64,000 nucleotides of DNA from Paenarthrobacter sp. DKR-5 (GTDB lineage Bacteria > Actinomycetota > Actinomycetes > Actinomycetales > Micrococcaceae), in assembly GCF_018531425.1 (NCBI RefSeq), contig NZ_JAHBOI010000007.1, positions 123,429 to 187,428 of the forward strand. The letters are read 5' to 3'. A program made the position numbers and the translations under genes. The notes under the pieces are model-generated. The model made no database searches and was not told the DNA's origin. It saw nothing but the letters and a program-made list of their open reading frames with translations. Of this stretch, positions 1 to 35,632 are shown piece by piece; position 1 is the stretch's first letter, and the number at the start of each line of letters is the position of its first letter.

Positions 1-912
1 GGCCAGCCAGCCGAGCCAGCTGGCGAAGACCGGCCGGAACGGGATCGAGATGGATCCGGGGACGTGCCCGGCGGCGTAGTCCGCGGGTTGCCGGGCGTCG
101 ATCACCTGCGCTCCCTGCTCGGCGAGGGCGGCCACCCGGGCGGCGGTGAGCGGGGCGAGGCCGGGCTCGCCGTGCAGGACGGCGGGGCCCTGCTTGTTGA
201 TTTCGCCCAGGCGGAGGAAGTAATCGGGGAAGGTTCCCATCGAGCCTAGCAATGCCTCCACGAAGGCGTCCTCGCTGCCGGCCTGCAGCAGCGCGTTGGT
301 GGCCCGTTCACGGCCGATGGTGGTGACGCGTTCGGCGGACCCGCCGGCGGAGCAGAAGGACCCTGCGCCGTGCGTGGGCCACACCGGGGTGTTGTCGGGG
401 AATTCCATGAGCCGCTGCAGGGAACGGTACTGGGCGCGGGCCAGGGGCACGGTCTGTTCGGGGTTGACGAGGTCCGTGCGCCCGGCGGTGCCGACCATGA
501 GCGAGCCGCCGGTGAAAATCCCGGCCAGGTTCCCGGCTTCGAGCAGCAGATAGGACAGGTGTTCGGGCGAGTGCCCCGGGGTATGCAGGGCCTGCAGGGT
601 GAACGAGCCCATCTCCACGCTCTGCCCGTCGGTGAGAGCCGTGTGCGCGAAACCGCGCGGCCCGACCTCCGGTGCCAGGACCTGCGCACCCTCAACCTCG
701 GCCAGTTCCGCGACCCCGGAAATGAAATCCGCGTGCAGGTGGGTTTCGACCGCGTAGGCGATCCTCAGCCCCCGCTTCGAGGCCTCGGCGCGGACCTGCC
801 GCAGGTCACGCTCCGGGTCCATCACCAGCGCCCGCCCGTCGCCAAGGTCCAACAGGTAGGTGGAATTGCCCAGTCCCTCATCGATGACGGGAATCAGGTT
901 CAGCGAGCCCAT
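1..912 (-). CDS. MBL-fold metallohydrolase with C-terminal rhodanese domain (partial, runs off window)
   Basis: The reading frame starts at ATG 912 and runs open for 304 codons to base 1, so the C-terminus lies outside the window. Residues 1 to about 220 form a metallo-beta-lactamase fold with the metal motif THLHADF followed by a later GHSPEHLSY-type His and WPTHGAGSFC. From about residue 250 a rhodanese-like domain begins (VIDARQPADYAAGHVPGSIS). This architecture is known from persulfide dioxygenase-like and sulfurtransferase proteins that handle sulfane sulfur. It is divergent from an ArsR-rhodanese regulator across a palindromic operator, so regulation by that protein is likely. Exact substrate is not shown by the sequence. 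Confidence 0.88.
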   Translation of the reverse strand, partial: MGSLNLIPVIDEGLGNSTYLLDLGDGRALVMDPERDLRQVRAEASKRGLRIAYAVETHLHADFISGVAELAEVEGAQVLAPEVGPRGFAHTALTDGQSVEMGSFTLQALHTPGHSPEHLSYLLLEAGNLAGIFTGGSLMVGTAGRTDLVNPEQTVPLARAQYRSLQRLMEFPDNTPVWPTHGAGSFCSAGGSAERVTTIGRERATNALLQAGSEDAFVEALLGSMGTFPDYFLRLGEINKQGPAVLHGEPGLAPLTAARVAALAEQGAQVIDARQPADYAAGHVPGSISIPFRPVFASWLGWLA

Positions 913-973
913 GACCGGCTCCTTCCCCGCCGGCGCAAGGGCCCGGCGATACAATGGTATTTCACAAAAACAT

Positions 974-990
974 GGAATAGAATCTATTCC
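974..990. promoter_or_regulatory. Perfect palindromic operator between MBL-rhodanese and ArsR-rhodanese genes
   Basis: GGAATAGA-A-TCTATTCC is a perfect 8+8 inverted repeat around one base. It is the AT-rich part of the divergent intergenic region, 28 bases before the GTG of the ArsR-type gene. ArsR-family repressors bind 12-2-12-like or shorter palindromes at their own promoters, so this is the likely autoregulatory operator. That assignment is inference; the palindrome is seen directly. Confidence 0.7.
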
Positions 991-1018
991 AGTATTACAC
1001 GGAACGCTGGAGGCGCAA

Positions 1019-1696
1019 GTGGGAGACAAGGCCAGGAAGTCCGAACTTTTCGAGGAGTTCGCCCGGGTCGGCAAGGCGATGGCCAACGGCAAGCGCCTCG
1101 AGCTGCTGGACCTGCTCGCGCAGGGGGAGCGGAGCGTGGAAACCCTGGCCGCCGCGGCCGGCCTCGGCCTGAGCACCGCCTCGGCGCACCTGCAGACGCT
1201 GCGCCAGGCGGGGCTGGTGACCACGCGGCGGGACGGGAACCGGATCCATTACGACCTCGCCGGGCCTGACGTGCTGGCACTGTACAGCCTGCTGCGCACC
1301 GTCGCCCGCGAGCGGGTGGCCGGCGTCGAACCCAAAAGGGCCGCCTACCTCGGTCTCGAAGGACCCCGCGCCGCCGAGGAGGAAGTCGCCCGCGAGGACC
1401 TGCTGGCCCGGTCCCGGGCCGGAACGGTCACGGTGCTGGATGTGCGCCCCGGGGAGGAATACCGTTCGGCCCACATCCCGGGCGCCCTGTCGATCCCGCT
1501 CGATGAGCTCAGCGGCAGGCTCAACGAGCTGCCCGAGGGCGCTGAGGTGGTCGCGTACTGCCGCGGCGCTTACTGCGTGCTCGCCTACGAAGCTATCGAC
1601 CTGCTCCGGGCCGACGGCCGCCCAGCGCGCCGGCTGAGCGAAGGCATGCTCGAATGGCGCCTGGCCGGCCTGCCCGTGGAAACCGCTGCAGCCTGA
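1019..1696 (+). CDS. ArsR-family HTH regulator fused to a rhodanese domain
   Basis: 225 residues. Start chosen at GTG 1019 because GGAGG lies at 1009-1013; longer in-frame starts would run through the operator. Residues 1 to about 95 are a winged-helix ArsR domain (LAAAAGLGLSTASAHLQTL is the recognition helix region). Residues about 125-220 are a rhodanese domain (VLDVRPGEEYRSAHIPGAL) with the active loop CRGAYC, which keeps its Cys. Proteins of this architecture sense reactive sulfur or metals through the rhodanese or HTH cysteines. The gene is divergent from the MBL-rhodanese gene and probably represses it and itself. Confidence 0.9.
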   Translation: MGDKARKSELFEEFARVGKAMANGKRLELLDLLAQGERSVETLAAAAGLGLSTASAHLQTLRQAGLVTTRRDGNRIHYDLAGPDVLALYSLLRTVARERVAGVEPKRAAYLGLEGPRAAEEEVAREDLLARSRAGTVTVLDVRPGEEYRSAHIPGALSIPLDELSGRLNELPEGAEVVAYCRGAYCVLAYEAIDLLRADGRPARRLSEGMLEWRLAGLPVETAAA

Positions 1697-1799: not shown

Positions 1800-2051
1800 A
1801 TGATGTACGGATGGGACGGCGGCTGGGGAGCCTGGGGCTGGGCACCAATGGTGCTGGTGATGTTGCTGTTCTGGGGCGGGGTCGTCACCGTGGTGATCCT
1901 GCTGCTCCGCCGCGGCGCGGGTGCTGAAGGCCCCGGATCCGTCGCCGCTCGCGATGACGCCGAGCGGATCCTCAACGAACGGTTTGCCCGCGGGGAAATC
2001 GATGAAACGGAGCTCACCGCGCGGCGGGCTGCCCTGAGGCGGAAAGCGTGA
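1800..2051 (+). CDS. Small membrane protein with C-terminal SHOCT domain
   Basis: 83 residues. A Trp/Gly-rich N-terminus is followed by one membrane helix (about residues 17-37), a short linker and a SHOCT motif (DDAERILNERFARGEIDETE). SHOCT domains are short C-terminal oligomerisation-type modules of unknown precise role. A GGGAGG-like ribosome site precedes the start. The stop overlaps the GTG start of the next gene by four bases, so the two are translationally coupled and likely act together with the copper proteins nearby. Confidence 0.85.
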   Translation: MMYGWDGGWGAWGWAPMVLVMLLFWGGVVTVVILLLRRGAGAEGPGSVAARDDAERILNERFARGEIDETELTARRAALRRKA

Positions 2052-2608
2052 GAAAACTCTCCCGGCGCAGCGCCGTGCTGATCGGTGTCCTCGCGACACT
2101 GGTGCTGAGCACACTCTCGATCATCGCCGTCGCATTCCTGCGCCCCCCGGGACCGGCCGGCACCCTCGCCGGGAGGGCCGGTTGCGCGGCGCCGGCACTG
2201 GGCGGCACCGTCGTGAACGTCACCGCCACCGACATGGGAGGGCCGATGATGGGCGGAGCCGGACGCGTCGGCCCGATGCGGCTGACCGCCGACCGTGCAT
2301 CTGTCGCGCACGGTCGGGTGAGCTTTCTCGTCACCAACGCCGGCCGTTACACCCACGAGATGGTGATCCTGCCGCTGCCGGGAACCCAAAGCGCAGGAAC
2401 ACGCCCCGTCGGAGGCGACGGGAAGATCGACGAGGCCGGCAGCCTCGGCGAAGCGTCCGCGACCTGCGCCGATGGCGCCGGGCAGGGCATCCTTCCCCGC
2501 ACCGTCGGGTGGGTCAGCGTGGATCTTGCACCCGGCCGCTACGAACTGGTCTGCAACTTCCCCGGCCACTATTCCGCGGGCATGTACACCCAGATCACCG
2601 TCTCCTGA
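2048..2608 (+). CDS. Membrane-anchored cupredoxin-like protein
   Basis: 186 residues with a GTG start that overlaps the previous stop. An N-terminal membrane segment (about 9-31) is followed by a periplasm-side or extracellular domain containing a Met-rich stretch (DMGGPMMGG). The C-terminal cupredoxin ligand pattern is C-x4-H-x4-M (VCNFPGHYSAGMYTQ), the classic blue-copper end, and HEM upstream can supply the other His. It resembles sulfocyanin-like copper proteins. Probably an electron carrier or copper-binding partner in the copper cluster formed with the multicopper oxidase and DUF305 genes downstream. Confidence 0.85.
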   Translation: MRKLSRRSAVLIGVLATLVLSTLSIIAVAFLRPPGPAGTLAGRAGCAAPALGGTVVNVTATDMGGPMMGGAGRVGPMRLTADRASVAHGRVSFLVTNAGRYTHEMVILPLPGTQSAGTRPVGGDGKIDEAGSLGEASATCADGAGQGILPRTVGWVSVDLAPGRYELVCNFPGHYSAGMYTQITVS

Positions 2609-2623: not shown

Positions 2624-2905
2624 ATGCACGAAGCAAGGATACGGGCGGTTGTCTGGGCGGCGCTAGGGTTCCCGCCGACGCAGCTCGTCCTGGACGTGGC
2701 GGGGCCGTCGTCGCCGGTGATGGTCCTTTTCACTGCCATCGGTGTTGGCGTTCAAACCTCCGTCTGGGCACAGATCCTCCGGGACAGCCGCACTGCTCCG
2801 GGCCCCCTCGTAAGGCGCGGGTGCCCTTGTCAGCGCTGGTGCCGGTCCTGCGCGGTCAGCCATGGTGGTGTTCGTGCCGGTCAGGGCTGCCGCCCATCAT
2901 TTTGA
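2624..2905 (+). CDS. Small hypothetical ORF, possibly one or two membrane helices
   Basis: 93 residues, ATG 2624 with CGGAGG 10 bases upstream, directly after the cupredoxin gene. The first 45 residues are hydrophobic enough for one or two membrane helices; the rest is Cys/Arg-rich and overlaps the 3' end of the convergent permease gene by about 50 bases. No family is recognised. It may be a real small gene whose natural end was lost, or chance. Confidence 0.3.
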   Translation: MHEARIRAVVWAALGFPPTQLVLDVAGPSSPVMVLFTAIGVGVQTSVWAQILRDSRTAPGPLVRRGCPCQRWCRSCAVSHGGVRAGQGCRPSF

Positions 2906-4019
2906 GCATGTCCCTGCCGCCGTTGGGCAGGAACCGGATGAGGAGGACCGCCGCGACGGCGAGGAAGACGAGGTTCAGCCAGGTGGTGTAGTTCCAAGAC
3001 ACGGCGGCTTCGAGCACGGTGGCGTTGCGTGCCTGGGGGGTCAGGCCGGTGTTGGCGAAGAGCAGTTCGACGACGTAGCCGGCGGCTACCATGGCCAGGT
3101 AGAAGATGCCGGTGAGGCGCAGGGCTGACCGGGTGTCGTAGTACTCGCGGTAGATCAGGATCACGGGGATGACGATCAGGTCAGCGAAGATGAAGCTGGT
3201 GACCCCGCCGAAACTGATCCCGCCGTTCCAGAGCACGGCGGCGAGGGGCACATTGCCGACGGAGCAGACGAAGCTGAGCATCGCGATCACAGGTCCAATG
3301 ATCGACCCCCACACGACAGCCAGGACCGGGTTCCCTTCGAAGAAGAACGCCCGCAGCCACTCCTTGGGAACCCAGGCCGCGAATGCCCCGGCAATCAGCA
3401 CTCCGCCGACAATGTCCTTCCAGACCGCGGCCCAGTCCATGACGAAGTAGCTGGCCACCGAATCGAGGCCTTCGCGAGAGAACAGCCGCCGAAGGAATGT
3501 CCCGTCGCCCTGGACGGACATGTCCATGGCGGCGTGGCCCTCCATCGAACCGGCGATGCCCTTGTTCGCCTGCTCGCGGGCGGCGTCGACGATCCTGCCG
3601 CGCATCCAGAGCCTGAATGCCAGGGCGACGAGCACGATCATGACCGGGCCGCCGATGAACTCGGCCAGCGTGAATTGCCAGCCCATGAGCAGGGCCAGGA
3701 TAATGCCCAGTTCGATGACCAGGTTCGTGGAGGCGATCTCGAACGCCATGGCCGAGGCGAAGCTCGCGCCCTTGCGGAACAGGGACCTGGCCAGTGCGAC
3801 CGCGGCGTAGGATCACGATGAGGAGGCGGCGCCGAGCCCGGTGGCCGCCGCCAGCGCTTTAGGCGAATCGCCGGAGAGCAGGCGGGTGATCTGTTCCTTG
3901 CGGACGACCGCCGGGACGATGCCGGAGAGGGTGAAGCCGAGGACGAGGGGCCAGAGAATTTCCCAGGCCATCGCCCCTGCGACGGCCAGCGCGTGACCGA
4001 TTTCATTGAGGATGTTCAT
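2856..4019 (-). CDS. DUF318/ArsP_1-type permease with in-frame TGA at a conserved Cys position (candidate selenoprotein or nonsense mutant)
   Basis: The single frame 4019 to 2856 encodes 387 codons, interrupted only by TGA at codon 69 (3815-3813). Start ATG 4019 has AAAGGAG upstream. Upstream part ends GLGAASSS, downstream part resumes SYAAVALARSLFRKG in the same frame; related permeases of this family carry SSSCSYAA here, so TGA stands exactly where TGC (Cys) is expected. The second half of the protein has the matching motif FVCSVGNVPLAA, consistent with an internal repeat where both halves carry Cys-Ser. About eight membrane helices; the C-terminus ends in a His-rich HEHHH tail. Family members export metal or metalloid species. 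Alternatives: nonsense mutation (pseudogene), split protein by reinitiation at MAFE (3749), or sequencing error. Confidence 0.75.
3769..3784 (-). promoter_or_regulatory. Weak hairpin downstream of the in-frame UGA (possible SECIS-like element)
   Basis: In the mRNA, CCCU-(GUUCCGCA)-AGGG can form a short stem whose loop begins 33 bases after the UGA. Known bacterial SECIS elements have the apical loop about 16-37 bases after UGA and a G among the first two loop bases; both hold here. The stem is only four base pairs, so the evidence is suggestive only. Confidence 0.25.
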
Positions 4020-4057
4020 GCGGTGCTCCTTTCATGGGCTTTTCGGTCCCGAACAGG

Positions 4058-5611
4058 TCATGCGAGGTAGGAGAAGACGCCCATCATGCCCTGCTGGGCG
4101 TGATAGGCGTTGTGGCAGTGGGTGAGCCATTGGCCCGGGTTGTCGGCCTCGAATTCAACGGTGACGGTTTGCCGGGGCCGGACGATGACGGTGTCTTTGC
4201 GGGCGCCGCTGCCGGCGAGCTGGAAGGTGTGCCCGTGCAGGTGCATGGGGTGCCACATGGTGGTGTCGTTGATGAACCGCACCTGGACGCGGTTGCCCTG
4301 CCTGATGTCGAAGGTGCCCGCGAGGGGGTTGTTCATGTCGAAGCGGCGGCCGTTGATGCCCCAGTCGTATTTGGCCATGCCACCGGTGAGGTGCAGTTCG
4401 TGCACGATATCGGGCGCTTTGGCGGCCAGCAGCACCGACGGGTCGGCTTTGAGGTTGCCGCCGTCGAGGACGGTCCCGTCGAGCGTCCGTGGCAGGTCGG
4501 CGGCTGCGGGCGCGCTGCCGGTGCCGGTGCTTACGATGCCGTAGGCGCGTCCGGGTTTGCCTTCGGGCAGGGCCAGCACCGGGGTTTGCCCGGGTTTGAC
4601 GGTGAGCAGCAGGTCGGCACGTTCGCCCATGCCAAGGACGACGGCGTCGAGGTCCTGGTGCTGCACGGGGTACCCGTCGCTGTGAGTGATGGTGACCTGC
4701 TGGCCGGGGACGCCGACGCGGTAGGCAGTGTCCCCGGCCGCGTTGATCACGCGCAGCCTGATCCGGTGACCGGGTTTGCTGCTGAAGGTTTCAGGCCGGT
4801 CGGGGGTGCGGGAGTTGAAGAGGTGGAAGGGGTAACTGACGTCCCCGGCGTCGCCGCCGAGGAAGGCGCTGTAGCTGCCCATGAGCATGTGGTCCATGGT
4901 CATGCCCGTGGACGGGGACGCCGTGTCGGAGCCCATGTTCATTCCGCCCATGGTTCCCGTGTTGCCCATGCCCCGGGAGAGTTCTTTGACGACTTCGTCG
5001 GGGGTGCCGGTGATCCCGTCGAGCCAGTCATCGAGCACGATGACCCATTCCTGGTCATAGGCCAGCGGCTCGTGCGGGTCTTCGATGATCAACGCCCCGT
5101 ACAGTCCGCGTTCGCGCTGCATTTCCACGTGGGAGTGGTACCAGTAGGTGCCCGGGTGCGGCAGCCGGAAGTCATAGGTCATGGACCCGCCCGCAGCCAC
5201 CGCGGTCTGGGTGAGGCCCTGCACGCCGTCCATGTTGTTGCGCAGCGCCAGCCCGTGCCAGTGGACCGTGGTCGGCTGCTCGAGCCTGTTCGATAAGGGC
5301 ACGTTCAGCCGGTCCCCGGCCTTGGCGCGGATCACCGGCCCGTTGAGCGAGTTGTTGTACCCCCACGTCGCCACGCGGTGGCCGCCGACACCGGCCGTCA
5401 GCGTGCCGGCGGCCAGGGGTCGGGTCACCGTCGCGCCGGTGGAGGGACGCGAGGCTTCGGCGGCAGCGACCAGGGGATTGTCGGGCATGATCCGGTTCAC
5501 CGGGCCGGCGGCAGGGGACGGCCGTGCGGGCGTGCAGGCGGCGATCGTCGCCATGGTGGTAGCGGCCAGACCCGCGCCGAGGAAGGCGCGGCGGGAAAGG
5601 TCAGGGTTCAC
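4058..5611 (-). CDS. Multicopper oxidase (laccase/CueO-like, exported)
   Basis: 517 residues, GTG start at 5611 with AGGA upstream. The N-terminus SRRAFLGAGLAA... ends at AAC, giving a Tat-type leader with a possible lipobox. All four copper-binding motifs are present: HWHG (about 118), YWYHSHVEMQ (about 160), HPMHLHGHTF (about 457) and WLTHCHNAYHAQQGMM (about 495). A Met-rich insertion near residues 215-245 (GMGNTGTMGGMNMGS, TGMTMDHMLMG) resembles the extra copper-binding segment of CueO. It probably oxidises Cu(I) and phenolics on the outer face of the membrane, as part of copper tolerance with the neighbouring DUF305 and cupredoxin proteins. Confidence 0.95.
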   Translation of the reverse strand: MNPDLSRRAFLGAGLAATTMATIAACTPARPSPAAGPVNRIMPDNPLVAAAEASRPSTGATVTRPLAAGTLTAGVGGHRVATWGYNNSLNGPVIRAKAGDRLNVPLSNRLEQPTTVHWHGLALRNNMDGVQGLTQTAVAAGGSMTYDFRLPHPGTYWYHSHVEMQRERGLYGALIIEDPHEPLAYDQEWVIVLDDWLDGITGTPDEVVKELSRGMGNTGTMGGMNMGSDTASPSTGMTMDHMLMGSYSAFLGGDAGDVSYPFHLFNSRTPDRPETFSSKPGHRIRLRVINAAGDTAYRVGVPGQQVTITHSDGYPVQHQDLDAVVLGMGERADLLLTVKPGQTPVLALPEGKPGRAYGIVSTGTGSAPAAADLPRTLDGTVLDGGNLKADPSVLLAAKAPDIVHELHLTGGMAKYDWGINGRRFDMNNPLAGTFDIRQGNRVQVRFINDTTMWHPMHLHGHTFQLAGSGARKDTVIVRPRQTVTVEFEADNPGQWLTHCHNAYHAQQGMMGVFSYLA

Positions 5612-5756: not shown

Positions 5757-6383
5757 TTAGAGCAAGCCCAGGATGGAGTTCATCTCCGATATTTCGGCCT
5801 GCTGGCTGCTGCTGATGGACTGCGCCAGGCTCAGGGCGTCCTTGTCGGAGCCTTGGGCGAGTTCGTCTCTGGCCATGGTGATGGCACCCTGGTGGTGCTG
5901 GATCATCTGGGTCAGGAAGAGTTTGGACGCGTCGGCCCCTGTGGCGGCGTTGAGTTTGTTCATATCGTCGGCGCTCATCGTGCCGCCCATGGACTGGTCC
6001 CCGGACATCGAGGCGGGCTCGCCCCAGGCCTGCAGCCAGCCGGTCATGGTGTCAATCTCGGGGGACTGCGCGGCTTTGATCTTCTTCGCCAGGGCGGTGA
6101 CGCGCGGGTCGATGCCCTGCTTTTTGAGGATGGTGTCGCTCATTTCGATGGCCTGGGCGTGGTGCGGGACCATCATCTGGGCGAACATGGTATCCACCGC
6201 ATTGTGGCTGGCGGAGGACGCGGTCGTTGCCGCGGAGGGGCCGGTCATCATCGAAGACGGGTGGTCCATGCCGGGCATGTTGGTCATGCCCGGGCTGTTG
6301 CTGCCTGAAGATGTGGAGCCGCAGGCGGACAGGGCTACGGCGGCGGCCAGGGCAACAACGGACAGAGGGAGGTTTCGGTTCAA
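5757..6383 (-). CDS. DUF305 lipoprotein
   Basis: 208 residues. Start TTG 6383 chosen because AGAAAGGA precedes it and it directly opens a lipoprotein signal peptide (LALAAAVALSAC-type lipobox, LSAC); an upstream in-frame start would add about 48 atypical residues. The mature protein has a Met-rich linker and two DUF305 repeats with the His pairs MMVPHHAQAIEMSD and MIQHHQGAITMA. DUF305 proteins occur with copper-handling genes in actinobacteria and are thought to bind metal outside the membrane. The gene lies upstream of the multicopper oxidase on the same strand. Confidence 0.92.
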   Translation of the reverse strand: MNRNLPLSVVALAAAVALSACGSTSSGSNSPGMTNMPGMDHPSSMMTGPSAATTASSASHNAVDTMFAQMMVPHHAQAIEMSDTILKKQGIDPRVTALAKKIKAAQSPEIDTMTGWLQAWGEPASMSGDQSMGGTMSADDMNKLNAATGADASKLFLTQMIQHHQGAITMARDELAQGSDKDALSLAQSISSSQQAEISEMNSILGLL

Positions 6384-6507
6384 GACAAGGGTCCTTTCTG
6401 GGAACGTGCACGGCGTGCCGGTAATATCCGGCGGAGCGGACAGGGGAAGGCCGCCCGGGTGCAGGGCCGTCACGGGCGCGCAGCGCGCCCCGTCAACGGC
6501 GGTGTTC

Positions 6508-6924
6508 TCAGATTCGGCTGATGCCAAGTAGGGTCAGGGACGGCGGATCCGCGCCGGGCAGCGACCCGCGGGCACAGGCCGGGTGGATCAGTGCCGCAGC
6601 ACGCAGGGACGGTGCCACTGCGGAGGGGAGGTCCGCCACCCCGTCCACGGAAGCCTGCGGACGGTCAAGAGTGCAGGCGCCGGCCATGGCCATATGGTCA
6701 GTGCCGTCCGTACAGCCCCGGGAGAGGACCGAATCGGGGTGGTGACCGTGCACGGCCGATACCGTCTGCATGGCCATCGCGGTCCCGGGTTGGCCCGCGG
6801 CTCCGGTGCCGTGGCCGCCGGCCAGGACATGCATGCCGAGCAGGCCCGCGACCAGGGCAAGCAGGCCGAGGATCATGGCGACGGAGCGGGCGAACGCGAG
6901 GAAGCGGCGGCTCACAATGGCCAT
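6508..6924 (-). CDS. DUF6153 family membrane-anchored protein
   Basis: 138 residues with ATG 6924 preceded by GGAGGAG. An N-terminal membrane helix (about 12-36, ILGLLALVAGLLGMHVLAGG) is followed by a His/Met-containing region (GHGTG, MAMQ, VHGHHPD, DHMAMAGAC) and a Cys pair. This pattern fits DUF6153, found beside copper and DUF305 genes in actinobacteria. The His/Met content suggests metal binding outside the membrane; function unknown. It is the first gene of the minus-strand run DUF6153, DUF305, multicopper oxidase, permease. Confidence 0.75.
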   Translation of the reverse strand: MAIVSRRFLAFARSVAMILGLLALVAGLLGMHVLAGGHGTGAAGQPGTAMAMQTVSAVHGHHPDSVLSRGCTDGTDHMAMAGACTLDRPQASVDGVADLPSAVAPSLRAAALIHPACARGSLPGADPPSLTLLGISRI

Positions 6925-7938: not shown

Positions 7939-7996
7939 GATGGGACTGCCCCGGCTTTTGTTGACTTGGTGACCTGCCCCAGGGATTGGTTACCCG
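7939..7996 (+). repeat. Left terminal inverted repeat of the IS3 element
   Basis: Matches the reverse complement of 9206-9263: shared blocks GATGGGACTGC, GTTGAC and a perfect inner 27-base block starting TGACCTGCCCC and ending GGTTACCCG. Confidence 0.85.
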
Positions 7997-8010
7997 GTGA
8001 AGAATGAGTC

Positions 8011-8871
8011 TCAGGCTGTTTGGGATGGGTTCTGGCAGTGTAGCTCGTGTTCGATGGGAGTCCGGTAGTCCAGTCCGGAATGGCGGCGCTGTCGGTTGTA
8101 GAAAATCTCGATGTAGTCGAAGATCGCGTTGGCCAGATCGGTGCGGGTCTTCCAGCGTTTCCTGTTCAAGAGCTCGATTTGCATGCTGGACCAGAAGGAT
8201 TCCATCATCGCGTTGTCGTACCCGTCCCCGATCGTCCCGAACGAGGGCATCAGGCCGGCGGAACGGATCTTGTTGGTGAAGGCCCAGGAGGTGAACTGGA
8301 CGCCGTGGTCGGCATGGACGATGCCACCGGGACCGGGGCGCCGGTTTCTAATGGCCATGTCCAGGGCGTTGACCACCAGGGCGGAGTCCTGGCTGCTGTC
8401 GATCGACCACCCAACGATCCGGCGGCTGAAGGTGTCCATCACGGCGCAGCAGTAGACCTTGCCCTCCCTGGTGGGATGTTCGGTGATGTCCGTGACCCAG
8501 AGTTCGTTCGGTGACAGGCGGTGGAATTTACGGTGCACGAGGTCATCGCTGGTGGCGATGCCCCGCAGGCGTTTGACCTTAGCCGGCCCGGGAAGGCCGG
8601 CGATCCCGGCCAGACTCATTAGTTCCGCGACCAGATGCTCGCTGACGGTGACGTTCATGCCACGGGTCAGCTCGGCATGGATCCGGCGGGAGCCGTAGGT
8701 GCCGCGGCTGGCGGTGTGGACTTCCCGGATGAGCCCGGTCAGCCATTGCCGGCGCATCCGTGTCGGTGACAGCGGCCTCTTCCGGTACTTGTAGTAGCCC
8801 GGACTGCTCACGCCAAGAAGCCGGCAGCAGACCTTCGCGGGAAACCCGGCGCCGGTAAGTTCTCCGATCAC
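8011..8871 (-). CDS. IS3-family transposase OrfB (DDE integrase domain)
   Basis: 286 residues. The rve-type catalytic triad is intact: WVTDITEHPT (first Asp), VHADHGVQFTS (second Asp) and GDGYDNAMMESFWSSMQIE (Glu). An HTH_21-like region lies at the N-terminus (residues about 45-100). The start codon overlaps the OrfA stop by four bases, so OrfB may be made by coupling or by the frameshifting usual in this family. Looks functional. Confidence 0.93.
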   Translation of the reverse strand: MIGELTGAGFPAKVCCRLLGVSSPGYYKYRKRPLSPTRMRRQWLTGLIREVHTASRGTYGSRRIHAELTRGMNVTVSEHLVAELMSLAGIAGLPGPAKVKRLRGIATSDDLVHRKFHRLSPNELWVTDITEHPTREGKVYCCAVMDTFSRRIVGWSIDSSQDSALVVNALDMAIRNRRPGPGGIVHADHGVQFTSWAFTNKIRSAGLMPSFGTIGDGYDNAMMESFWSSMQIELLNRKRWKTRTDLANAIFDYIEIFYNRQRRHSGLDYRTPIEHELHCQNPSQTA

Positions 8872-9164
8872 CGGGTGGATCCTTTTGGGTCCGGCCGGTC
8901 CTCACCGAGCAACCTGGCTGCACGCTTGAGGATCTCCACTTCCGTTTCCAGCTGACGGATCCGCTTCCTGGCTTTGGCCAGCTCGGTGCTCTCCGGCGTC
9001 GTCAGTCCTGGGCGTTCGCCGCGGTCGATCTGGTCCTGACGGACCCAGTTGTGCAGGCCGCCCTCGCTGATGCCCAGCTCGGCGGCCACTCGGCTGATGG
9101 GTTTACCGGCCCGGACCAGGGCCACTGCCCGTGCGCGGAATTCCGGTGGATAGGGTCTTGGCAT
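8868..9164 (-). CDS. IS3-family transposase OrfA (helix-turn-helix)
   Basis: 98 residues. The N-terminal HTH reads YPPEFRARAVALVRAGK and ISRVAAELGISEGGLHNWV, followed by a leucine-zipper-like helix (KARKRIRQLETEVEILKRAA) as usual in OrfA. Binds the terminal repeats and partners OrfB. Confidence 0.93.
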   Translation of the reverse strand: MPRPYPPEFRARAVALVRAGKPISRVAAELGISEGGLHNWVRQDQIDRGERPGLTTPESTELAKARKRIRQLETEVEILKRAARLLGEDRPDPKGSTR

Positions 9165-9205
9165 GTCTGAAGCCTCTCAGCGAGAGCCCAAAACTCAAAC
9201 CATTT

Positions 9206-9263
9206 CGGGTAACCAATCCCTGGGGCAGGTCAGCCTGTCAACTAAACCTTCAGCAGTCCCATC
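9206..9263 (-). repeat. Right terminal inverted repeat of the IS3 element
   Basis: Mirror of 7939-7996. The perfect inner block is 9206-9232; outer blocks GTCAAC and GCAGTCCCATC pair with the left end. Confidence 0.85.
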
Positions 9264-34288: not shown

Positions 34289-35632
34289 GGGACTGTAAAT
34301 TTTCCGGTGTAACTCTTGATGAAGAGGAGACAGATGTGACAGCTGCCGCGGCGGATGCGGTGGACGAGGATCTGGTTCGGCAGCTGACCGAGCGTGCCCG
34401 GGCCGAGGGACTGCAGTTGGCCGGGGAGGGCGGGCTGCTGCAGAAGCTGACCAAGCTGGTCATGGAGTCCGCGCTTGATGGCGAATTGGACGATCATCTC
34501 GGCTATGGCAAGCATGATCCGGCCGGGCGCGACGGCGGCAATTACCGTAACGGCCGGCGGTCCAAGACGCTGCTGACTGAGGCCGGGCCGGTGGAGATCT
34601 CGGTGCCCCGGGATCGGGACGGGTCGTTCGAGCCGCGGATCGTGGCCAAGCGGCAGCGCAGGCTGACCGGGGTGGATGGCCTGGTCATCTCGCTCTCGGC
34701 CAAGGGCCTGACCCATGGCGAGATCGCCGCGCATCTGGCCGAGGTGTACGGGGCTGAGGTGTCCAAGCAGCCCATCTCCACGATCATTGATCGGGTGCTG
34801 GAGGGGATGGGAGAGTGGCAGAACCGGCCGCTGGATCCGGTGTGCCCGGTGATCTTCATCGATTGTGTGAACGTGTAAATCCGCGACGGCCAGGTCGCGA
34901 ACCGCCCGATCTACGTCGCCCTGGCCGTGACAGTCGACGGGACCCGGGAGATCCTCGGGCTGTGGGCCGGCGAGCACGGCGACGGCGAGGGCGCGAAGTA
35001 CTGGCTGCGGGTGCTGACCGAGATCAAGAACCGCGGCGTGGCCGACTGCTGCATTCTGGTCTGCGACGGGCTGAAGGGCCTTCCGGACGCGGTTGGGGCG
35101 GTGTGGCCGCAGACGGTGGTCCAGACGTGCATCGTGCACCTGCTGCGCAACAGCTTCCGTTATGCCTCCAGGAAGGACTGGTCGCAGATCGCTAAGGACC
35201 TCAAGCCCGTCTACACCGCCCCGGGCGAGGCGGCGGCGCTGGACCGGTTCGCGGAGTTCTCGGGCAAGTGGGAGAAGCGGTACCCGGCCATCATCGGGCT
35301 CCGGACCAGCGCGTGGGCCGCATTCGTGCCGTTCCTGCAGTTCGACAACGAGATCCGCACCGTGATCTGTACGACGAACGCGATCGAAAGCATCAACGCC
35401 CGTATCCGCCGCGCCGTGAACGCCCGCGGCCACTTCCCGACCGAGCAGTCCGCGCTGAAGTGCATCTACCTGGCAATCATGAGCCTGGACCCCACCGGCA
35501 AGGGCCGGAAACGCTGGAGCAACCGCTGGAAGGCCGCACTCAACGCCTTCGAGATCACCTTCGACGGACGCCTGTCCGCCGGCAGGAGCTAGAGAAAGAC
35601 AACCCCAGTTACACCGAATAATTGACAGACCC
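34289..35632 (+). mobile_element. IS256-family insertion sequence (transposase interrupted by a stop)
   Basis: Imperfect 27-base terminal inverted repeats at 34289-34315 and 35606-35632 (GGGACTGTAAATTTTCCGG and partner) enclose a single transposase frame. No 8-base target duplication was seen. The element separates a frameshifted DUF3105 gene from the 5' piece of another gene on the right. Confidence 0.88.
34336..35592 (+). pseudogene. IS256-family transposase with in-frame TAA
   Basis: One frame runs from GTG 34336 to the stop at 35590, except for TAA at 34876-34878 where the family has Lys (FIDCVNV-stop-IRDGQVANRP). The stop lies three residues after the first catalytic Asp region, so the two catalytic parts (LVCDGLKGLP and TNAIESINARIRR) are separated. 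The remaining protein is complete. The element is probably immobile on its own unless read-through occurs. Confidence 0.85.

Follow-up and report, generated by a model that had tools for sequence, protein, structure and literature searches.

Does the single in-frame TGA of a permease gene in Paenarthrobacter sp. DKR-5 encode selenocysteine (Sec), or does it end translation early? This question was raised by the window, the whole stretch of 64,000 nucleotides analysed here. On its minus strand, a frame ran from an ATG at 4019-4017 to a final TGA at 2858-2856. The initial annotation had described 387 codons with TGA at codon 69 as the sole stop, a ribosome-binding site in front of the gene and a Cys-Ser motif (FVCSVGN) in the second half, and all of this was confirmed (Table 1), the Cys of the latter motif being C252. 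The motif at the stop itself was SSS-stop-SYAA. No further lesions were seen in the frame besides the codon-69 TGA; thus, the other inactivating mutations that had been named as a possible argument against Sec were not encountered.

Table 1. Features of the window and their coordinates.
Feature	Position	Strand	Basis
PF03773 (ArsP_1) permease gene, 387 codons, single internal TGA	2856..4019	-	profile match and frame
In-frame TGA, codon 69; relatives have Cys here (TGC or TGT)	3813..3815	-	frame and alignment
AAAGGAG, likely ribosome-binding site, 6 nt upstream of ATG	4026..4032	-	sequence
Weak hairpin CCCU-GUUCCGCA-AGGG with flanks, loop 32 nt past UGA	~3759..3780	-	generic bSECIS rules
Multicopper oxidase, next gene upstream of permease, open	4058..5611	-	profile/ORF
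DUF305 protein, open	5757..6527	-	profile/ORF
DUF6153 protein, open	6508..6924	-	profile/ORF
ArsR-type regulator with rhodanese domain, open	860..1696	+	profile/ORF
SoxE-like cupredoxin-type protein, open	2048..2608	+	profile/ORF
IS256/Mutator-type transposase split by in-frame TAA at 34876	34336-35592	+	PF00872 15-168, 173-372
IS3-type element; transposase frames 8011-8871, 8868-9164 (minus)	7939-9263	-	inverted ends 79 nt, 76% complementary

When read through codon 69, the 387 residues matched the PF03773 (ArsP_1) profile with 236.3 bits (cut-off 32.3), and the whole read-through permease fitted this family. The 68 residues before the stop corresponded to profile positions 2-63 and those from the next ATG (codon 91) to positions 87-293; that is, the pieces on either side of the TGA matched consecutive parts of the profile. 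We take DUF318, the label first given to the gene, to be a name for the PF03773 ArsP_1 permeases (YraQ/UPF0718). The genome (3.78 Mb) had no other PF03773 match. The gene had a premature stop in a frame that was intact among its kin, the mark of a nonsense pseudogene. A product of 68 residues would be short of most membrane helices, and one started at the next in-frame ATG (codon 91) would be without the first motif. The position of the stop was notable, since only one of the 81 one-base changes that create a stop in this gene hits codon 69; with mutations weighted in five different ways, the chance of a stop there came to 0.6 to 1.2%.

The Cys that the initial annotation had expected at this position (SSSCSYAA) was found throughout the relatives. 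Among 105 alignment rows, in which some genomes stood twice, codon 69 was TGC in 87, TGT in 13, TGA in 2 and CCT in 3; both TGA rows were the window itself, and the CCT rows came from a misaligned broken copy of one genome (G191). With rows containing a stop removed and some genomes again counted twice, all 111 rows at 55% identity or more had Cys at codon 69 (98 TGC, 13 TGT). Likewise, Cys was present in all but one of the fetched proteins showing the pattern SS.SYA (239 of 240), and the exception had Gly. An in-frame UGA was thus aligned to a conserved Cys, as expected of a selenoprotein. The conserved Cys was thus borne out. A TGA shared with homologues, which had also been considered, was not seen at codon 69 in the relatives' loci obtained, which covered only part of the matches. 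These matches came from genome searches (own genome included) with hits in 16 of 395 Micrococcaceae, 46 of 394 genomes of the class and 5 of 35 genomes of one other family; an earlier search of the Micrococcaceae had matched 14 of 295. The TGA motif had no matches in viral contigs. Relatives were also present in 131 plasmid records, where codon 69 was read in one archaeal relative (L214) alone and was Cys.

The close gene type was carried by 36 genomes (all those available of this type except a contig-edge fragment, G302), 14 of which, own included, had a tRNA-Sec and 22 did not. The other tRNA-Sec genomes had TGC at codon 69 in 13 of 13 cases, so the machinery alone did not lead to Sec here.

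The machinery itself was complete in this genome. It encoded selD (386.6 bits), SelA (325 bits), SelB (269.6 bits) and a tRNA-Sec with anticodon TCA (80.2 bits), all adjoining one another on one contig (C1). The check for sel genes proposed with the initial annotation thus came out in favour of Sec, and the main objection foreseen there, a genome without sel genes, failed. On the same contig, the fdhA gene (L156:1652-5002) carried an in-frame TGA in the motif NQARI-U-HS and ended 2.2 kb from selD. Together with the sel genes, this made it very likely that UGA is decoded as Sec at least in fdhA. The permease resembled this fdhA in having one in-frame TGA within a long conserved frame; the two differed in that fdhA had a SECIS with a 7-bp stem and a GU loop and that its Sec-codon TGA was kept in 10 other genomes.

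Comparison with known transporters placed codon 69 at a conserved site. According to the part of PMC4435449 available, a C(S/T)C motif was present in all surveyed ArsP. In a profile alignment (probability 98.1), C69 fell on the first Cys of this motif, C-S-C in four distant ArsP-like permeases. The branch considered here differed from ArsP proper in having C-S-Y instead of C-S-C, and our permease accordingly had TGA-S-Y. The available part of PMC13188914 listed the SO_0444 transporter family with GenBank-annotated selenoproteins and the motif UxC, and the Sec of this motif would sit on the Cys aligned to C69. The SO_0444 Cu/Zn efflux transporters (NF033936) belonged to the same superfamily (53.7 bits, E 1.7e-14), but the permease was far under the 300-bit family cut-off and had no SECIS of the local type. 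The likeness to the SaoE efflux transporter (NF040736) was similarly distant (55.6 bits, with the cut-off of 325 bits unreached). The accessible parts of PMC12013277, PMC5029168 and PMC4531530 held nothing decisive for the permease, and no title among those listed from the open-licence PMC literature named a Sec form of this branch. The PDB held no sequence relative at E 0.1 and no fold match at E ≤0.001 (best 6.3e-3). In a predicted model (mean pLDDT 74.4), residues 66-70 and 249-252 were helix breaks, one per half, so that C69 and C252 would lie at like places; in an intact permease they would be likely ligands at these two breaks.

The initial annotation had also reported a weak hairpin with its loop 33 bases after the UGA. 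Such a hairpin was indeed present, with the loop at 32 nt, but it was not above chance. Under generic bSECIS rules taken from the available part of PMC13188914, the permease passed with a 4-bp hairpin, the loop GUUCCGCA at +32 and -10.4 kcal/mol, and 132 of 400 random 70-mers were its equal. It also passed a stricter form that demanded a G[G/U] loop, as did 80 of 400 random 70-mers with scores as good. On the same scale, 64 (loose) and 34 (strict) of 400 random 70-mers were as good as fdhA, and the Cys relatives passed in 74 of 102 (loose) and 38 of 102 (strict) cases; the place of the permease hairpin was kept in 14 of these 102. In DNA as GC-rich as this, a generic scan for SECIS elements discriminates poorly. 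A 52-nt stretch starting at the permease UGA folded at -15.2 kcal/mol, more weakly than its shuffles (z +1.13), in comparison to -20.7 kcal/mol (z -1.74) for fdhA. Rfam returned two matches only, both far below the gathering scores.

A local yardstick was obtained from the stretches around tRNA-Sec of the 13 other carriers and our own genome. The Sec codon of fdhA was aligned in 11 of the 14 stretches and was TGA in all 11, while L228, L234 and L238 gave no alignment over it. The stem of the 11 fdhA genes was GGUUCCC/GGGARCC but for small variations, and their shared RGUYU loop began 18 nt after the UGA; in two of the genes one pair was altered on both sides. The fdhA SECIS of the clade is therefore stereotyped, with a 7-bp stem and a GU loop about 19 nt past the UGA. 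At the corresponding columns of the permease, 3 of the 7 pairs could form and the loop motif was absent. A rule derived from fdhA (a stem no shorter than 6 bp and a G[G/U] loop between +17 and +20) was satisfied by 10 of 11 fdhA genes, 1 of 102 Cys relatives and 113 of 5000 random 70-mers, and the permease failed it. A covariance model built from the 11 fdhA genes gave 68.1 bits for own fdhA, which was in its training set, and 3.8 bits for the permease with the hairpin skipped; the permease was also absent from the 26 matches of the model in the window (E up to 10). This model includes the constraint on the fdhA protein, so that any other selenoprotein is bound to score lower than fdhA. By these measures, no SECIS of the clade's fdhA type was found at the permease UGA.

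Protein collections contained truncated relatives that could be taken for further cases. A pile of 18 N-truncated proteins starting at Val74 was dropped as evidence for numerous copies with TGA, because nearly all truncated entries begin with M, V or L and a contig edge or any upstream stop mimics such a pile. Among the best 120 of 420 short fragments, 12 (own included) ended in frame at residue 68, 11 of them exactly with SSS. This was also rejected as a striking signal, since the comparison with Tyr71 and Ser66-68 showed the neutral nonsense expectation. Namely, in the same best 120 of 420, there were 25 ends at Tyr71 (two one-step routes to a stop), 12 at Cys69 (one route), 15 at Ser66-68 (2.23 routes) and none at Ala72, Ala75 and Ala77 (no routes). 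Over codons 66-80, the ends tracked the routes closely (Spearman 0.95, n 15). Without our own sequence, 11 ends were seen at Cys69. The count at Tyr71 predicts 12 there and that over all codons about 9; thus, there was no excess at this codon. The fit was poor at codons 65 (no routes, 4 ends), 81 (no routes, 2 ends) and 83 (0.98 routes, 1 end), which fall outside the tested range. Some fragment ends were probably contig edges, several names saying "partial", and those ending at residue 68 may hold a few genuine TGA cases amid the noise.

Several individual entries deserve mention. P0252, P0246 and P0319, on contigs of 3.7, 10 and 52 kb, ended at the residue before codon 69; the first came from a Pseudonocardia MAG and its entry had no "partial" label. 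P0295 (Pseudarthrobacter sp. AL07, ending GLGAASS) was set aside as a second case because the similar copy of genome G774 stops at codon 68, has Cys69 and bears more lesions. P0051, a protein of 320 aa from a 773-kb contig whose nearest sequences were P0038 and P0035 of Nocardioides koreensis, may be a second TGA case; the searches of the class, the family of 35 genomes and the Micrococcaceae found no such locus. P0273, from an Arthrobacter strain (UYCu72...), is a fragment of 74 residues on a 255-kb contig; it was 80% identical and ran into unrelated sequence from the motif on; it is probably another broken permease copy.

Broken copies were not rare among close relatives. The close gene type occurred in 12 further genomes of the Micrococcaceae; three carrying only a 45% relative were left out. 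The gene was intact in 9 of the 12 and broken in 3. The G774 copy (L192) had stops at codons 68 and 196 and lost its frame beyond, G191 had two damaged copies (L061, L070), and the G051 copy (L193) had an internal deletion. All were the same gene of the same family, and the first stop of the G774 copy lay one codon away from ours; however, these copies bore multiple lesions, frameshifts or a large deletion, whereas our permease had one stop only. In a genome of another family (G474), the gene had a TAG at codon 36. The permease copies at L192, L061/L070 and L193 appeared to be decaying independently in related genomes.

Constraint on our copy seemed to have lasted until recently, since its dN/dS against four copies of the type found in Sinomonas, a member of the Micrococcaceae, was 0.105-0.140, like that among those four intact kin (0.057-0.178). 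Three residues, Q36P, P239S and G295D, were specific to our lineage at columns at least 97% conserved among 200 relatives. Three such singletons were reached by 3 of 49 lineages of like isolation (mean 0.59), which hints at relaxation. When 483,001 bases were scanned by coding score for frames interrupted by a single stop and 21 printed contexts were judged by eye, one other clear case was left, the IS256-type transposase; the scan was crude, as fdhA ranked low in it.

The neighbours of the permease gave some indication of its function. The same-strand run was ordered DUF6153, DUF305, oxidase and permease, and because the permease was last, its loss would probably leave the other genes unsilenced. 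A SHOCT-like protein with an open frame was also encoded near it on the plus strand. Judging from its family and neighbours, the intact permease would export copper, or else some related metal or metalloid that binds thiols. DUF305 was present in 10 and the oxidase in 5 of the relatives' loci (80 kept of 582, flanks up to 4 kb), so the link to copper was suggestive only.

The choice initially posed was between a selenoprotein and a fresh nonsense mutation. The frame, the Cys and the sel gene set agreed with the former, but the lack of a kept TGA in kin, the missing fdhA-type SECIS and the repeated decay of the gene fitted nonsense better, and the neutral pattern of fragment ends pointed the same way. 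We therefore consider it probable that the TGA is a recent nonsense mutation in an otherwise intact permease gene. The Cys69 codon (TGC or TGT) would have mutated to TGA, and translation would end after 68 residues, leaving no working transporter despite the Sec genes in the genome; the change is taken as recent since the substitution rates still resemble those of intact relatives. The 52-nt fold, the three singletons and the split transposase in the window also argue for nonsense. Against it stand the stop on a conserved Cys (1 of 81), the full Sec set, of which 22 of 36 carriers lack the tRNA-Sec, the low dN/dS with no other lesion, the generic bSECIS match with its GU loop at +32 and the GenBank-annotated selenoproteins listed for SO_0444. 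These observations would suit a permease in which the UGA is decoded by SelB and tRNA-Sec, so that Sec takes the position that Cys has at the helix break of its kin and perhaps binds the metal or metalloid more strongly; we regard this as possible but doubtful. The exact replacement of the Cys, the complete machinery with a TGA-containing fdhA in the same genome, the intact and constrained frame, the position of C69 where the UxC of SO_0444, as listed in PMC13188914, would place Sec, the generic bSECIS match, present even under the strict rules (equalled by 80 of 400 random 70-mers), and the three fragments on contigs of 3.7 to 52 kb ending at the same codon all speak for it. However, TGA was seen in no relative's DNA and in 0 of the 13 other Sec-decoding carriers, the fdhA-type SECIS was absent, the hairpin was not above chance, and fragment ends showed no excess at codon 69.

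Two further explanations had lower standing; the probabilities behind all four were judgements, not computed values. A sequencing or assembly error that altered a single base of an ordinary Cys codon would agree with TGC or TGT in all relatives and with the single genome of the genus and single member sequence of the protein in the collection, yet the contig of 187 kb, the assembly of 15 contigs with an estimated completeness of 100 and the absence of a homopolymer at the site make it improbable. That a suppressor tRNA inserts some other amino acid at the UGA, with no selenium involved, is most improbable: no support for it was found in the 38 tRNA loci scanned (of 47 matches), where the sole UCA anticodon was that of tRNA-Sec, and tRNA-Cys had GCA and tRNA-Trp CCA.

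If the nonsense reading is correct, the locus is a warning that a UGA in frame at the position of a conserved Cys can be an ordinary nonsense mutation even beside a full Sec set. The permease might instead, though this is the less likely course, be a newly born selenoprotein, in which a putative metal-binding Cys has just turned into Sec with a SECIS unlike that of own fdhA (GU loop at +32). A Sec form would then be new to this permease branch and caught at the Cys-to-Sec step. Decoding of the UGA as Sec would place the switch in this transporter at its very start and raise the question of how loose the SECIS needs of SelB are. Comparison with the SECIS of own fdhA and with stop positions at neighbouring codons provided a cheap test that can be copied elsewhere. 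Moreover, the stereotyped SECIS at L156:2258-2302, together with those in the fdhA genes of 10 other genomes, can be used as a search model for selenoproteins of this clade.
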